Positions 38,534 through 45,346 of a stretch of DNA of 64,000 bases are shown in pieces (position 1 is the stretch's first letter; each line of letters opens with the position of its first letter). The position numbers and the translations under genes were made by a program. The notes under the pieces are model-generated. The model searched no databases and was not told the origin of the DNA. It worked only from the letters and a program-made list of their open reading frames with translations. Source of the stretch: Pseudomonas resinovorans NBRC 106553 (GTDB lineage Bacteria > Pseudomonadota > Gammaproteobacteria > Pseudomonadales > Pseudomonadaceae); the NCBI RefSeq assembly GCF_000412695.1, contig NC_021499.1, forward strand, positions 496,001-560,000, read 5' to 3'.

Positions 38534-40312
38534 ATGGCTGACTACAAAGCGCCCCTGCGCGATATGCGCTTCGTCCTCAACGAAGTCTTCGAGGTTGCCA
38601 AGCTCTGGGCGGAACTGCCGGCCCTGGCCGAAGTGGTCGACGCCGATACCGCCTCCGCCATCCTGGAAGAAGCCGGCAAGGTCACCGGTGGCGTGATCGC
38701 CCCGCTGAACCGCAGCGGCGACGAAGAAGGCTGCCAGTGGAAAGACGGTGCCGTGAGCACCCCGGCCGGTTTCCCCGAGGTCTACAAGACCTACGCCGAG
38801 GGCGGCTGGGTCGGCGTGGGCGGTGATCCCGTCTTCGGCGGCATGGGCATGCCCAAGGTCATCTCCGCCCAGGTGGAAGAGATGGTCAACGCGGCCAACC
38901 TGTCCTTCGGCCTCTACCCCATGCTGACCGCCGGAGCCTGCCTGTCGATCAACGCCCACGCCAGCGAAGAGCTGAAGGAAAAGTACCTGCCCAACATGTA
39001 TGCGGGTGTCTGGGCCGGCTCCATGTGCCTGACCGAACCCCATGCCGGCACCGACCTCGGCATCATCCGCACCAAGGCCGAACCCCAGGCCGACGGCAGC
39101 TACAAGATCAGCGGCACCAAGATCTTCATCACCGGCGGCGAGCACGACCTGACCGAGAACATCATCCACCTGGTACTGGCCAAGCTGCCGGACGCCCCGG
39201 CTGGCCCGAAAGGCATCTCGCTGTTCCTGGTGCCCAAGGTGATGGTCAACGCCGACGGTTCCCTCGGCGAGGCCAACGCCGTGTCCTGCGGCTCCATCGA
39301 GCACAAGATGGGCATCAAGGCTTCCGCCACCTGCGTGATGAACTTCGACGGCGCCACCGGCTACATCGTCGATGCCCCGAACAAGGGCCTGGCCGCCATG
39401 TTCACCATGATGAACTACGAGCGTCTGGGCGTGGGCATCCAGGGCCTGGCCTCCGGCGAGCGTTCCTACCAGAGCGCCGTGGAGTACGCCCGCGAGCGTA
39501 TCCAGAGCCGCGCCCCGACCGGCCCGGTGGCCAAGGAAAAAGCCGCCGACCCGATCATCCATCACCCGGACGTGCGTCGCATGCTGCTGACCATGAAGGC
39601 GGCCAACGAAGGCGGCCGTGCCTTCTCCAGCTACGTCGCCATGCAGCTGGACACCGCCAAGTTCAGCGAAGACCCCACCGTGCGCAAGCGCGCGGAAGAA
39701 ATGGTCGCCCTGCTGACCCCGGTGGCCAAGGCCTTCCTCACCGACCTCGGCCTGGAAACCACCATCCACGGCCAGCAGGTCTTCGGCGGCCACGGCTTCA
39801 TCCGCGAGTGGGGCCAGGAGCAGCTGGTGCGTGACGTGCGCATTACCCAGATCTACGAAGGCACCAACGGCATCCAGGCCCTCGACCTGATGGGTCGCAA
39901 GGTGGTGGGTAGCGGCGGCGCGTTCTACAAGCACTTCGCCGACGAGATCAAGGCCTTCGCCAACGGCGCGTCCGCCGAGCTGGCCGAGTTCACCGAGCCG
40001 CTGAAGGCCGCCGTCGCCAACCTCGACGAGTTGACCGCCTGGGTCCTGGACCGCGCGAAGAACAACCCCAACGAAATCGGCGCCGCCTCGGTGGAGTACC
40101 TCCACGTGTTCGGCTACACCGCCTACGCCTACATGTGGGCCCTGATGGCCCGCGCCGCGCTGGGCAAGGAAGGCCAGGACGACTTCTACGCCAGCAAGCT
40201 CGGCACCGCGCGCTTCTACTTCGCCCGCCTGCTGCCGCGCATCCACTCCCTGACCGCCTCGGTGAAGGCAGGCAGCGAGGCGCTCTACCTGCTGGACGCC
40301 GAGCAGTTCTGA
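38534..40312 (+). CDS. Acyl-CoA dehydrogenase (medium-chain FadE type)
   Basis: A 592-aa acyl-CoA dehydrogenase of the same large type (starting [15 protein letters not shown]), more divergent from the first two than they are from each other. It has MCLTEPHAGTDLGIIRTKA and YEGTNGIQALDLMG with E442 as the likely base. By order it corresponds to PAO1 PA0508 (FadE2, described as medium-chain), as I recall. The leader contains an AT-rich stretch with GTCACTAAATGAC that may be an operator. A terminator follows directly. Confidence 0.92.
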   Translation: MADYKAPLRDMRFVLNEVFEVAKLWAELPALAEVVDADTASAILEEAGKVTGGVIAPLNRSGDEEGCQWKDGAVSTPAGFPEVYKTYAEGGWVGVGGDPVFGGMGMPKVISAQVEEMVNAANLSFGLYPMLTAGACLSINAHASEELKEKYLPNMYAGVWAGSMCLTEPHAGTDLGIIRTKAEPQADGSYKISGTKIFITGGEHDLTENIIHLVLAKLPDAPAGPKGISLFLVPKVMVNADGSLGEANAVSCGSIEHKMGIKASATCVMNFDGATGYIVDAPNKGLAAMFTMMNYERLGVGIQGLASGERSYQSAVEYARERIQSRAPTGPVAKEKAADPIIHHPDVRRMLLTMKAANEGGRAFSSYVAMQLDTAKFSEDPTVRKRAEEMVALLTPVAKAFLTDLGLETTIHGQQVFGGHGFIREWGQEQLVRDVRITQIYEGTNGIQALDLMGRKVVGSGGAFYKHFADEIKAFANGASAELAEFTEPLKAAVANLDELTAWVLDRAKNNPNEIGAASVEYLHVFGYTAYAYMWALMARAALGKEGQDDFYASKLGTARFYFARLLPRIHSLTASVKAGSEALYLLDAEQF

Positions 40313-40503: not shown

Positions 40504-41151
40504 CTACGGCTGCAACGAATCCCCTAGCGTCGGATCGTCGATGAAGCGGTTGCGGTTGCCCTGGAGGAACTCGATCTGGTCATTGCGCGCGCGTTCCTCG
40601 TCGTCCACCGGGTCGAGGCGGTTCCACTGCTGGAACATCTGCAGCTGGCCGACGATGGGCAGGTCGTATTCGCTGTGCATGTAGAAGATCGCCCGGGCCA
40701 CGTTGCCCTTGGCGGCGTCGCGGGGCTCCAGCAGTTGGTAGGCGGACTTGAGGTCGCAGTCGGCCAGTTTGCTCTGGCCGCCTTCGCCCACCGTGCCGAA
40801 CAGCGCATTGCGCCGCGCCAGTTCGACGCGCGACTGTTCCGGATAGAGGTTGTGCAGGTCGGCCAGCATGTAGGGGAACTGCGCATTGCCGGCCTGGCAC
40901 TGGCCGTCGGTGACGCAACGCAGGGCGCTCTTGATCTGCTTGGCGCTGTACACCGGACTGGCGCTGAGGCCGGCAGGAGTGCTGAAGGGCTTGCCGCAGT
41001 AAAGGGTGGTGCCGCCTCGGCCGTAGAGCTGTTGCCAGAAGGCCTGCTCGACCGCCGCCTTGGGATCGGCGAGACGATCCTGGCCACCGGCGAGGACGAT
41101 GCTGGCGGCGCAGGCCGCCAGGCAGGAAAGGGCAAAAACGACTGGACGCAT
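40504..41151 (-). CDS. endA: Endonuclease I family protein
   Basis: A 215-aa exported nuclease of the EndA/Dns family. A signal peptide (MRPVVFALSCLAACAASIVLA) targets it to the periplasm or outside. The betabeta-alpha-metal region is visible as ADLHNLYPEQSRVELARRNALFG, and NVARAIFYMHSEY lies downstream. It cleaves double-stranded DNA non-specifically. The ATG at 41151 is preferred over one 6 nt upstream because AGGG has better spacing. It is divergent from rsmY. Confidence 0.85.
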   Translation of the reverse strand: MRPVVFALSCLAACAASIVLAGGQDRLADPKAAVEQAFWQQLYGRGGTTLYCGKPFSTPAGLSASPVYSAKQIKSALRCVTDGQCQAGNAQFPYMLADLHNLYPEQSRVELARRNALFGTVGEGGQSKLADCDLKSAYQLLEPRDAAKGNVARAIFYMHSEYDLPIVGQLQMFQQWNRLDPVDDEERARNDQIEFLQGNRNRFIDDPTLGDSLQP

Positions 41152-41299: not shown

Positions 41300-41317
41300 T
41301 GTAAGCATTGGCTTACA
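41300..41317. promoter_or_regulatory. GacA upstream activating sequence of rsmY
   Basis: TGTAAG-CATTGG-CTTACA is an exact match to the GacA box TGTAAG-N6-CTTACA. Its centre lies about 66 nt before the inferred rsmY start. In Pseudomonas, GacA binds such boxes almost only upstream of the Rsm small RNA genes. Confidence 0.92.
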
Positions 41318-41374
41318 TGCGCTGGTGTCTATGGCTCCTTCCGGGCTCAGGTGAGCGGGATTAATCTTCACTCC

Positions 41375-41496
41375 ATTGGACGTCGCGCAGGAAGCGCACT
41401 GCAAAACAGGGATACGCCGGATTTCCGCCAGGATGGCGGTTCGATCAGGGATGTCGGAATACAGTCTGCAAAACCTCGCTTCGGCGGGGTTTTTCT
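41375..41496 (+). ncRNA. rsmY: Small RNA RsmY
   Basis: RsmY is a decoy RNA that sequesters the translational repressor RsmA/CsrA. The roughly 120-nt transcript inferred here has seven GGA motifs. Two are presented in hairpin loops: GCGC-AGGAA-GCGC (41385-41397) and CCGCC-AGGAT-GGCGG (41425-41439). The 5' part GGACGTCGCGCAGGAAGCGC resembles the start of P. aeruginosa RsmY. A -10-like TAATCT (41362-41367) and the GacA box lie upstream. Transcription ends at AAAACCTCGC-TTCG-GCGGGGTTTTT. In PAO1, rsmY likewise lies next to the LysR gene PA0528, followed by the same MOSC-aminotransferase-amidotransferase set. Exact ends are estimates. Confidence 0.92.
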
Positions 41497-41501
41497 TTTT
41501 T
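41470..41501 (+). terminator. Terminator of rsmY
   Basis: AAAACCTCGC-TTCG-GCGGGGTTTT with one G-T pair, then TCTTTTTT. The opposite-strand A-run/T-run arrangement may also end the converging LysR transcript. Confidence 0.88.
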
Positions 41502-41516
41502 GGCCGGCGCAAACGG

Positions 41517-42413
41517 CTACAGCAACATCTCCTTCTGCACCACCCCTTCCAGCAACGAGCGCAGCAGCTCCAGGGTTGCCTGCTGGCGTTGCGCATCGCG
41601 AAACACCAACCCCACCTTCAAGGGCACCCGTGGCTCGCTGAGGGGTTTCCACAGCAGGTGCTGGTTGGCATGCATCTGCCGCGCGCGACCGGGCAGCACC
41701 GTGGCCAGCCTGGTGTGCGGCAGGCTGTCGAGAATCCCCGCCATGTGGTTCAGCTCCGCCTGCACATGGGGGCGGCGGCCGAGCAGGGCGAGCTGTTCCT
41801 GCCAGATCTGCCGCACGCGGAATTCCTCGCCCAACAGCAGCATCGGCAACTCGGCGGCCTGGCCCAGGGACACCTTCTTGAACTCCTTCAGCGGATGTTC
41901 GTCCGGAATCACCAGCTGCAGTTCGTCCTCGTACAGCAGTTGGCTGTGCAGCCCAGGCTGGCGTGGCGGCAGGAAGCCGATGCCGATATCCAGGTTGCCG
42001 GTGAGCAGGCGCCGCTCGATATCCAGCCCGGACAGCTCGTAGATCTGCACCACCAGCTGTGGCTGCGCCTCGCGCAGGCGTTCCAGCAGCATGGGCACCA
42101 GCGCCGCGTTGACCGTCTGCAGCACGCCGATGGCCAGGCTGCGCGGTGACTGGCCACGGAAGCCGCGCAGGGCCTCGCGGGCGCGCTCCAGGCCATCCAG
42201 CAGGGGCAGGGCGTGGCTGTACAGGGTATGGGCGGCGAGGGTCGGCAGCAGGCGCTTGCCGCTGCGCTGGAACAGGCTGACGTCGAGGTTCTGCTCCAGC
42301 TGACGGATCTGCTGGGAAAGCGCCGGCTGCGACAGGCTCAGGCGCTCGGCGGCGCGGCCTACATGACCCTCCTCGTAGAGGGCGACGAAGTAACGAAGCT
42401 GTCGAAAATCCAT
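41517..42413 (-). CDS. LysR-family transcriptional regulator (CynR-like)
   Basis: A 298-aa LysR regulator with an N-terminal winged helix (MDFRQLRYFVALYEEGHVGRAAERLSLSQPALSQQIRQLEQNLDV) and an effector-binding domain (about 90-290). It is divergent from the MOSC operon with a 103-nt gap, so it probably regulates that operon. It converges on rsmY. By position it is the counterpart of PAO1 PA0528. Effector unknown. Confidence 0.9.
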   Translation of the reverse strand: MDFRQLRYFVALYEEGHVGRAAERLSLSQPALSQQIRQLEQNLDVSLFQRSGKRLLPTLAAHTLYSHALPLLDGLERAREALRGFRGQSPRSLAIGVLQTVNAALVPMLLERLREAQPQLVVQIYELSGLDIERRLLTGNLDIGIGFLPPRQPGLHSQLLYEDELQLVIPDEHPLKEFKKVSLGQAAELPMLLLGEEFRVRQIWQEQLALLGRRPHVQAELNHMAGILDSLPHTRLATVLPGRARQMHANQHLLWKPLSEPRVPLKVGLVFRDAQRQQATLELLRSLLEGVVQKEMLL

Positions 42414-42516: not shown

Positions 42517-43215
42517 ATGTCCGCGTGGGTAGTGCAGGGTGTTTTCATAGGTAAAGCCGAAGATATCGGCGGTGGCTTGTCCAGCGCAATCGACAAGCGT
42601 CCGATTGACCACCGGCTCTGGCTCTGGCCCCAGGGGCTCGGCAGTGACGAGCAGGGCGACCCGCGTTTCCATGGCGGCCCCGAACGTGCCCTGCATCACT
42701 ACCCCGCCGAACACTACGCCTACTGGCGCAAGCATTTCCCTCAGCTTGCGTGGAAGGCCCCGAGTTTCGGCGAGAACCTCTCCACCTGCGGGCTGACCGA
42801 GGAGCAGGTGTGTATCGGCGATATCTTCCGCTGGGGCCAGGCCTTCATCCAGGTCAGCCAGCCGCGCTCGCCCTGCTACCGCCTGAGCCGGCGCTGGGGA
42901 ATCCCCGGCCTGCCCGAGCAGGTGCAGGAAAGCGGCCGCTGCGGCTGGTTCTACCGTGTGCTGCGCCCCGGCTTCGTCAGCGCCGATGACAGCCTGGAGC
43001 TGATCCAGCGCAGCTACCCCGGGCTGACCGTCGCCCACGCCGTGCAGAGCTTCTTCCACTCCCCGCTGGAACACGCCGGCCTGCAACAGTTGCGCGAATG
43101 CGCGGCGCTGTCCGCTCGCTGGCGCGATACCGCCGGCAAGCGCCTGGCGAGCGGCCAGCTGGAAGACTGGAGCTCCCGCCTGCAAGGCCTGCCGCTGGAG
43201 GGCATGCGTGCATGA
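42517..43215 (+). CDS. MOSC-domain protein (YiiM-like)
   Basis: A 232-aa MOSC-domain protein related to E. coli YiiM, which handles N-hydroxylated bases such as 6-hydroxylaminopurine with molybdenum cofactor. The conserved MOSC cysteine is in VSQPRSPCYRLSRRW, preceded by FHGGPERALHHYPAEHY and FGENLST. It is the first gene of a tightly overlapping four-gene operon (ATGA overlap with the next). Substrate in this operon is unknown. Confidence 0.88.
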   Translation: MSAWVVQGVFIGKAEDIGGGLSSAIDKRPIDHRLWLWPQGLGSDEQGDPRFHGGPERALHHYPAEHYAYWRKHFPQLAWKAPSFGENLSTCGLTEEQVCIGDIFRWGQAFIQVSQPRSPCYRLSRRWGIPGLPEQVQESGRCGWFYRVLRPGFVSADDSLELIQRSYPGLTVAHAVQSFFHSPLEHAGLQQLRECAALSARWRDTAGKRLASGQLEDWSSRLQGLPLEGMRA

Positions 43216-43451
43216 ACGACTACCGAATCCACCTGCGCCGCGACCAGGTGCTCATGGCCGAGATCAACGTCAGCCAGGCGCGCTACGTCGAGATGACCCG
43301 CGAGCTGCGCCAGCGCTTCCCTGCCGAAGACGGCTTCAGCCTGCACATCGAACGTCGCCGCGAGCTGCGCCGCATCCTCGAACAGGGCCCGGAAGGCCTG
43401 CGCCTGCTGGGCATCGAGTACCGCCATGAAGAGGTCCCCGAGCATGCGTGA
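43212..43451 (+). CDS. 79-aa protein of unknown function in the MOSC operon
   Basis: A charged, helical 79-aa protein (MNDYRIHLRRDQVLMAEINVS...ERRRELRRILEQGPEGLRLLG) with no recognised domain. It starts inside the MOSC stop (ATGA) and ends overlapping the aminotransferase start by 8 nt, so it is almost certainly translated. It may be an accessory subunit of one of its neighbours. Confidence 0.8.
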   Translation: MNDYRIHLRRDQVLMAEINVSQARYVEMTRELRQRFPAEDGFSLHIERRRELRRILEQGPEGLRLLGIEYRHEEVPEHA

Positions 43452-44640
43452 CCCCCTTGCCAGCCTGCGCCTGATGAAGACCGTCGAGCGCCCCGCGCAG
43501 CTCTTCGTGCGCGGCCAGGGTTCCTGGCTCTGGGACGCCGACGACCGCGCCTACCTGGACTTCACCCAGGGCTGGGCGGTCAACAGCCTCGGCCACAGCC
43601 CCAGCGTGGTGGTGGACGCCTTGAAACGACAGGCCGAAGCGGTGATCAACCCCGGCCCGGCCTACTACAACCGCGGCATGCTCAAGCTGGCCTCGCGGCT
43701 GTGCCAGGCCAGCGGCAGCGACCAGGTCTACTTCCTCAACAGCGGCGCCGAGGCCGTCGAGGGCGCCATCAAGCTGGCGCGCAAGTGGGGCCGGCTGCAT
43801 CGCGGCGGCGCCCATCGCATCGTCACCGCCGGCAACAGCTTCCACGGTCGCAGCCTGGCCACCATGTCCGCCTCCGGCAAGCCGGCCTTCGCGGACCTGT
43901 TCGAGCCCAAGGTGCCGGGCTTCACCAAGGTGCCCTACAACGACCTCGATGCACTGGCCGCGGCGGTGGACGAGACGACCGTGGCGGTGCTGCTGGAACC
44001 GGTGCAGGGCGAGGCCGGCGTGATCCCCGCCACCCTGGACTACCTGCAGGGCGCCGAGCGCCTGTGCCGCGAGCGCGGCGTGCTGTTGATCCTCGACGAA
44101 GTACAGACCGGCATCGGCCGCTGCGGCACCCTGCTGGCCGAGGAGCTATACGGCATCCGCGCCGACATCATCACCCTCGGCAAGGGCCTGGGCGGCGGCG
44201 TGCCGCTCGCGGCGTTGCTCGCCCGTGGCAATGCCTGTTGCTTCGAGCCCGGCGAGCAGGGCGGTACCTACCATGGCAATGCGCTGATGACCGCCGCCGG
44301 GCTGGCGGTGCTCAATACCGTGCTGGAGCCGGGCTTCCTCGAGCAGGTCCGCGAGGTCGCCCAGCACCTGCGCGAAGGCCTGGCGCGGGTTTCCCGCCGC
44401 CATGGCCACGGCCCCCTGCGCGGCCATGGGCTGATGATCGGCCTGCCGCTGATCCAGCAGTCCGCGCCCCTGGTGGTGCGCCATGCCCTCGCCGAGGGGC
44501 TGCTTATCAACGCGCCGCAGCCCGGCTGCCTGCGTTTCACCCCGGCGCTGACGGTGAGCCACGCCAATGTCGATGAAATGCTCAAACGCTTGAACCGCGC
44601 GTTCGCCCTGGCCAAGAGCAAACCCCTGGAGATTGCCTGA
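43444..44640 (+). CDS. Class III aminotransferase (acetylornithine aminotransferase-like)
   Basis: A 398-aa PLP enzyme of fold type I, subgroup III, similar in layout to ArgD/AstC. The PLP lysine is K247 in ITLGKGLGGGVPL, with LNSGAEAVEGAIKLARK for the phosphate and LDEVQTGIGR for the pyridine-ring Asp. It would transfer the omega-amino group of an ornithine-like or similar diamine-derived substrate. It overlaps the preceding 79-aa gene by 8 nt and is 1 nt from the amidotransferase. Counterpart of PAO1 PA0530 by order; physiological substrate not known to me. Confidence 0.88.
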   Translation: MRDPLASLRLMKTVERPAQLFVRGQGSWLWDADDRAYLDFTQGWAVNSLGHSPSVVVDALKRQAEAVINPGPAYYNRGMLKLASRLCQASGSDQVYFLNSGAEAVEGAIKLARKWGRLHRGGAHRIVTAGNSFHGRSLATMSASGKPAFADLFEPKVPGFTKVPYNDLDALAAAVDETTVAVLLEPVQGEAGVIPATLDYLQGAERLCRERGVLLILDEVQTGIGRCGTLLAEELYGIRADIITLGKGLGGGVPLAALLARGNACCFEPGEQGGTYHGNALMTAAGLAVLNTVLEPGFLEQVREVAQHLREGLARVSRRHGHGPLRGHGLMIGLPLIQQSAPLVVRHALAEGLLINAPQPGCLRFTPALTVSHANVDEMLKRLNRAFALAKSKPLEIA

Positions 44641-44641
44641 T

Positions 44642-45346
44642 ATGCGCGTCGCCATCCTGCAGCACGTCCCCTTCGAAGGCCCCGGCCGCGTCAAGCAGTG
44701 GCTCGACCTGCGCGCCGCGCGGGCACGGACACACCTTCTGTATGCCGATGCGCGCCTGCCCGAGCCGGAAGACTTCGAGCTACTGATCGTCATGGGTGGC
44801 CCCATGAGCGTTCATGACGAGGCCGAACTGCCCTGGCTCAAGGCCGAGAAAGCGCTGATCCGCCAGGCCCTGGACGCCGGCAAGCGGGTACTCGGCATCT
44901 GCCTTGGCGGCCAGTTGCTGGCCGAGGTGCTGGGTGCCGAGGTGCGCAAGGGCGAGGTGGAAATCGGCTGGTGGCCCATGGAGAAACACGCCGGGGCGGA
45001 GCGTTCGCCACTGGGACGGATGCTGCCCCAACGGCTGTTGGCCATGCACTGGCACGGCGAGACCTTCGACCTGCCGCCGGGCGCCATTGCGCTCTACGGC
45101 TCGGCCGCTTGCGCCAACCAGGGTTTCGTCTGGGAGGAGCGCGCCATCGGCCTGCAGTGCCACCTGGAGGCCACGCCCGAGAGCATCGAGGCCATGCTCG
45201 ACGCCTGCGCGGCGGACCTTGCGATGGAGGGATCGGTGGAGGACGCGGCGGCCATCCGCGACGGCTACCCCCATTGCAGTGCCCTGGCGCCGACCCTGTT
45301 CCGCTTGCTGGATTACCTCACCGGGCCCCATGCGGCACTGACCTGA
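44642..45346 (+). CDS. Class I glutamine amidotransferase
   Basis: A 234-aa stand-alone class I GATase. The triad is C87 (LGICLGGQLLAE), H174 and E176 (LQCHLEATPE). Proteins of this type hydrolyse gamma-glutamyl amides or supply ammonia; with no synthase partner here, a gamma-glutamyl hydrolase-like role is possible. It is the last gene of the MOSC operon. A REP doublet follows instead of a clear terminator. Confidence 0.87.
   Translation: MRVAILQHVPFEGPGRVKQWLDLRAARARTHLLYADARLPEPEDFELLIVMGGPMSVHDEAELPWLKAEKALIRQALDAGKRVLGICLGGQLLAEVLGAEVRKGEVEIGWWPMEKHAGAERSPLGRMLPQRLLAMHWHGETFDLPPGAIALYGSAACANQGFVWEERAIGLQCHLEATPESIEAMLDACAADLAMEGSVEDAAAIRDGYPHCSALAPTLFRLLDYLTGPHAALT

Follow-up and report, generated by a model that had tools for sequence, protein, structure and literature searches.

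An intact rsmY gene and a probably damaged Gac/Rsm cascade in Pseudomonas resinovorans CA10

Introduction

The Gac/Rsm cascade is described as a pathway in which GacS phosphorylates GacA, GacA drives rsmY and rsmZ, and the two RNAs sequester RsmA-type proteins (PMC8395346). According to the work cited in PMC4682653, rsmY and rsmZ are the only direct GacA targets found in P. aeruginosa. In the account of PMC8395346 both genes also receive GacA-independent inputs in this species, and two further sponge RNAs, RsmV and RsmW, are not directly Gac-dependent. A second system that is close to the case presented here is P. fluorescens SBW25 with the pQBR megaplasmids. When carrying pQBR103 it is reported to lose gacA/gacS repeatedly, and RsmQ of this plasmid to bind pieces of RsmY and RsmZ (PMC10062694, PMC8544851, PMC9928087).

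Here, we analysed a stretch of 64,000 nucleotides from the chromosome of P. resinovorans CA10 (contig NC_021499.1, positions 496,001 to 560,000; hereafter the window), together with the rest of the genome. The replicons of this strain are a chromosome of 6,285,863 bp and the 198,965-bp plasmid pCAR1.3 (PMC3735057); coordinates on them are preceded by C1 and C2, respectively, and those in the window stand alone. CA10 and pCAR1 appear in published plasmid work. The RsmY gene of the window is routine in itself, and its main value is that it points to a Gac/Rsm switch whose sensor and one of whose two known output RNAs appear to be broken in the sequenced genome. This should be allowed for in work on the physiology of CA10 or on the effects of pCAR1 on its hosts. 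We are fairly confident of the explanation as a whole, that is, of an rsmY gene standing in a damaged Gac cascade.

Identity and anatomy of the rsmY RNA

The following features were located on the forward strand of the window.

41300..41317, +, GacA box (upstream activating sequence), exact, TGTAAGCATTGGCTTACA, by pattern search
41318..41375, +, linker and core promoter region of rsmY, by alignment of 18 genus genomes
41376..41493, +, RsmY RNA (118 nt), extent from the Rfam match
41385..41397, +, hairpin 1 with GGA in the loop, by Rfam alignment and minimum-energy fold
41425..41439, +, hairpin 2 with GGA in the loop, by Rfam alignment and minimum-energy fold
41470..41493, +, intrinsic terminator (stem-loop, then a T-rich tail), by fold and terminator scan
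41378, 41390, 41410, 41419, 41431, 41449 and 41456, +, starts of the GGA motifs (n = 7), by motif count

A sequence-only reading had named an rsmY small RNA gene in this gap and proposed an Rfam covariance search as a check. In that search the RsmY model RF00195 matched 41376-41493 (+) over its full length (1-121) with 99.9 bits at a cut-off of 57, which, together with the synteny described below, bears the identification out. The same reading had seen seven GGA motifs in a segment of about 120 nt, two of them in hairpin loops, and a terminator at its end. All of this was found again: the seven motifs lie within the 118 nt, GGA 2 and GGA 5 occupy loop positions in the minimum-energy fold (z = -2.68) as well as in the Rfam alignment, and the segment closes with the terminator at 41470-41493. 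Seven GGA per 118 nt is uncommon for such GC-rich DNA, at least seven being present in 283 of 127,764 windows of this size (0.22%, both strands) and in 128 of 20,000 shuffles. The description of the gap as free of open reading frames holds for likely genes, but mechanical frames of 94-257 aa do cross it.

The score, the GGA hairpins with the terminator, and the distance of the GacA box all agree with membership in the RsmY family. The RNA resembles RsmY of P. aeruginosa (RF00195) in its seven GGA motifs, two GGA loops, terminator and GacA box at -76. Judged by these features of the sequence, the segment 41376-41493 is an intact, ordinary rsmY and a routine addition to a known family. An rsmX gene was also sought in the genome, and the sole match of the rsmX model was the rsmY locus itself, with a weak score under the cut-off (35.9 bits, cut-off 56). 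Because visual inspection places it among ordinary terminators, a further hit of the RsmY model at C1:4768795 (26.8 bits, under the cut-off) appears fortuitous.

The GacA box and the rsmY promoter

The palindrome TGTAAG-N6-CTTACA, reported earlier as exact, was confirmed at 41300-41317, and it is the single match in the window even when up to two mismatches are allowed. Base composition predicts 0.0005 exact matches; shuffles gave a mean of 0.34 matches at up to two mismatches, with at least one match in 28 of 100. Genome-wide there are two exact boxes, and the other one adjoins a gene judged by eye to be rpoS. The form with two mismatches is not enriched across the genome (25 matches versus 46 for a reversed-pattern control), thus only exact or near-exact boxes in context are informative. 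The box had been placed 66 nt before the RNA; measured to the Rfam 5' end the gap is 58 nt, or 76 nt counted from the start of the box. A simple scan revealed no sigma-70 consensus promoter at rsmY, and a TAATCTTC block at 41362-41369 is largely conserved in the alignment of 18 genus genomes. Elsewhere on the chromosome, a GacA-box-like palindrome with one mismatch (C1:294757-294774) lies upstream of a gene resembling the sigma-32 factor rpoH by eye.

RsmY exceeded the cut-off in all 18 genomes of the genus (CA10 included) and in 30 of 57 genomes overall. The box stands at -76/-77 of rsmY in each of the 18, and is exact in 16. When all 30 loci over the Rfam cut-off were counted, a box with at most two mismatches was present at -75 to -79 in 28.

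The neighbourhood of rsmY

The gap that holds rsmY is flanked by an endonuclease I gene and a LysR gene, in the following order.

38534..40312, +, acyl-CoA dehydrogenase, left side
40504..41151, -, endonuclease I family protein (PF04231), left neighbour
41517..42413, -, LysR-family regulator, right neighbour
42517..43215, +, MOSC-domain protein
43426..44640, +, class-III aminotransferase
44633..45346, +, class-I glutamine amidotransferase

Related loci were found through the LysR gene, and the best 51 of 66 were compared, the 15 weakest being left out. A MOSC gene lies within 1.5 kb to the right of LysR in 43 of the 51. On the left side, a relative of the acyl-CoA dehydrogenase or of its neighbour occurs within 3.5 kb in 24 loci, and endonuclease I within 1.5 kb in five. 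A Dnr-type protein (above 45% identity, within 10 kb) was found in one locus, that of P. aeruginosa PA7; it has Crp-type domains and is the protein which we take to be Dnr. Several loci being short or covered no further than 10 kb, these counts are lower bounds.

The claim that the right-hand neighbours match the P. aeruginosa PAO1 locus stands for the order LysR, MOSC, aminotransferase, which is alike in the window and in PA7, our comparison genome in place of PAO1. The left boundary had been regarded as rearranged in the window, and here the counts reverse the picture: with acyl-CoA dehydrogenase on the left in 24 of 51 loci and dnr in PA7 only, the left arrangement of the window is, as far as these loci tell, common, and it is P. 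aeruginosa that departs from it. CA10 thus differs from P. aeruginosa rsmY in its left neighbours, endonuclease I and acyl-CoA dehydrogenases instead of dnr, and further in its split gacS.

A frame change in gacS

The match of the BarA/GacS model falls into two abutting parts, C1:4935338-4936822 and 4936822-4938057, each in a frame of its own. In all 17 congeners gacS is one open frame; in one of them (G002) the model match reaches only position 786 of 920, the alignment ending early. All 17 congener proteins place the CA10 frame change at locus positions 2523-2541, about C1:4936822-4936840. The front piece carries sCache_4, HAMP, HisKA and HATPase domains and the rear piece the receiver and Hpt domains, so that in CA10 the order sensor-HAMP-HisKA-HATPase-receiver-Hpt is not contained in a single frame. 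The frameshift therefore severs the phosphorelay domains from the kinase. The 890-bit cut-off of NF008318 (BarA-type) was reached by none of the 18 genus members. The front piece matches the solved structures 7z8n and 5o7j, both labelled only as histidine kinase, which we take to be those of P. aeruginosa GacS; the probable identity of the split kinase as GacS rests on these matches and on the domain order. The gacA gene is intact (316.4 bits, cut-off 280).

An insertion sequence in the rsmZ promoter

A further lesion was found at rsmZ.

C1:4968881-4970070, IS5-family element of 1190 bp in the rsmZ core promoter, by comparison of the flanks and of the plasmid copy

The RsmZ RNA itself is intact (RF00166, 113.7 bits) and, like the usual PrrB/RsmZ, lies beside rpoS, between genes that read by eye as rpoS and ferredoxin. 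It differs from the usual PrrB/RsmZ in that its core promoter is split by the 1190-bp element and its GacA box stands at -1385 and not at about -191. Thirty rsmZ loci of the 41 matches listed were examined: 28 of the 29 others have their box between -178 and -193, and the remaining locus (L087) has no box within one mismatch. When the flanks are rejoined without the element, the CA10 box falls at -191, the usual value for the genus. The -35-like TTGCCC, which scores only 4 of 6, and the -10 TAATAT of rsmZ are now on opposite sides of the insertion.

The insert belongs to the IS5 family by its DDE transposase (PF01609), terminal inverted repeats (13 of 20 positions matching) and CTAA target duplication, and it is named IS1384 in plasmid records. 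Five near-full-length matches to the element occur on the plasmid contig, four at 85% and one identical, with 0 differences in 1190 positions; this identical copy has a different target duplication, TTAG. As the target duplications differ and native flanks are present on both sides, the data argue against an assembly chimera. The identity to the plasmid copy indicates that the jump into the rsmZ promoter was probably recent. An IS near rsmZ does not seem to be unprecedented, since an ISPsy6 transposase is listed among the genes drawn near rsmZ in some strain in a figure legend of PMC4353343.

RsmA/CsrA proteins of the chromosome and the plasmid

The chromosome has a csrA/rsmA gene (90.9 bits), and a homologue is carried on the plasmid.

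C2:112859-113014, CsrA/RsmA homologue, by profile match; annotated as csrA on pCAR1

A third match, at C1:4864829 (24.6 bits, under the cut-off), was dropped, as the pattern scan gave no recognisable CsrA frame. The pCAR1 CsrA is 100% identical to the protein in four of 187 matching plasmid records, namely NC_004444 (pCAR1), NC_011838, NZ_OP918264 and NZ_CP089552, and 53.7% identical to the CsrA of a 157-kb SBW25 plasmid, probably pQBR55. The presence of csrA on a plasmid is unremarkable by itself, because the gene is reported on 63 of 330 Pseudomonas plasmids (PMC7366521).

Proposed state of the Gac/Rsm cascade in CA10

By analogy with the family, phosphorylated GacA would bind the palindrome at 41300-41317 and start the 118-nt RsmY, whose GGA hairpins would sequester RsmA-type proteins and so relieve the translational repression of target mRNAs. 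This mechanism is taken from the family, and what was established at the locus itself is identity, anatomy and conservation. In CA10 the cascade appears to be damaged above RsmY, by the gacS frameshift, and beside it, by the IS that splits the rsmZ promoter and moves its GacA box 1.2 kb away. Since both gacS and the rsmZ promoter are broken, GacA-dependent expression of RsmY is doubtful, and a low level of sponge RNA is to be expected. The rsmY gene seems to be the only Gac-type sponge gene found with an intact promoter, the search having covered rsmX, rsmY and rsmZ. RsmY is probably poorly activated, and we infer that CA10 probably remains at low RsmY and high free RsmA; the CsrA encoded on the plasmid may contribute to this state. 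GacA might also be phosphorylated by another route. Among the publications listed on pCAR1, on resinovorans gacS and on an IS at rsmZ, titles and abstract openings announce no such lesions, which is not proof that they are unpublished.

Origin of the two lesions

How the lesions arose is a separate question. We give even chances to the view that both are a by-product of laboratory culture or of relaxed selection, in which a gacS mutant came first and decay of the rsmZ promoter followed, the plasmid having supplied the IS but no selection. The probably recent jump of an element identical to the plasmid copy fits this view, as does the suggestion in PMC10062694 that gacA/gacS may be contingency loci, at which mutation rates are raised, but nothing that we saw tells culture history apart from plasmid selection.

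The selective alternative, by which the plasmid drove the erosion of the Gac/Rsm switch and CA10 would be a natural instance of it, seems unlikely. Under it, pCAR1 would have brought its own RsmA homologue as well as an IS that inserted in the rsmZ core promoter, and the host would have lost gacS; all three changes would push the cell to high free RsmA, the direction taken by SBW25 when it evolves tolerance of pQBR plasmids in experiments. The repeated loss of gacA/gacS in SBW25 carrying pQBR103 makes such a link plausible, and CA10 is likewise a plasmid host with an apparent gac loss and a plasmid-borne CsrA/RsmA homologue. However, SBW25 was evolved and measured, whereas CA10 offers only a sequence pattern. 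Against the link, PMC10062694 reports gacS mutations also with a plasmid devoid of rsmQ, and gac loci may just be prone to mutation. In the account of PMC8544851, earlier soil experiments did not detect gac loss; with pQBR57 such loss brought an equivocal benefit, and it reduced conjugation roughly tenfold. If the lesions do answer plasmid carriage, they would parallel in nature the compensatory evolution known from the laboratory.

Other readings of the damaged cascade

An assembly error could account for the gacS frame change. It is rather improbable, though worth keeping in mind, that RsmY works normally in CA10 and that only rsmZ is affected, the gacS change being either a mistake in sequencing or a variant of the sequenced stock alone. 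Single-base errors do occur in assemblies, and gacA and the rsmY locus are untouched. However, no homopolymer longer than 4 occurs within 80 nt around the frame change, and the CA10 assembly was checked and manually corrected with 75-fold Illumina reads (PMC3735057).

We also consider it doubtful that rsmZ is still transcribed, independently of Gac, from a promoter at the end of the IS joined to the retained -10. This reading gains from the fact that TAATAT and the entire RsmZ RNA are intact and that the AT-rich stretch of rsmZ now lies beyond the IS; at such an AT-rich site MvaT is reported to inhibit rsmZ in P. aeruginosa (PMC3985676, PMC8395346). On the other hand, among hybrid -35 sequences from the IS end at spacings of 15-19 none is better than 3 of 6, and the transposase reads away from rsmZ.

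Finally, that 41376-41493 is some other leader or attenuator, as the weaker overlapping Rfam matches to rnk_pseudo (27.4 bits, cut-off 55) and istR (25.5 bits, cut-off 45) might suggest, is refuted in practice by the gap to the full-length 99.9-bit RsmY match and by the conserved synteny and the GacA box.

A dispersed repeat with GGA loops

The window contains one other Rfam match, to TwoAYGGAY (RF01731; 17849-17913, +, 45.4 bits), a model of the same clan as RsmY. This copy belongs to a dispersed repeat with at least 60 matches in CA10 and 0 to 40 in 12 congeners; 86 candidates were scored per genome, so the larger counts may be low. For the analysis of pairing we used nine copies from nine genomes (9 of 13 cores), and 20 of the at least 60 CA10 copies were fetched. 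In the nine copies 98.5% of cells pair and eight of 22 pairs change on both sides, both measures lying above all 500 shuffles; the number of further pair types was equalled in 44 of the 500. GGA is invariant in both loops of all nine copies. As these loops presumably resemble RsmA sites, the repeat could be a set of candidate scattered RsmA-binding sites, or a scattered sponge, if it is transcribed.
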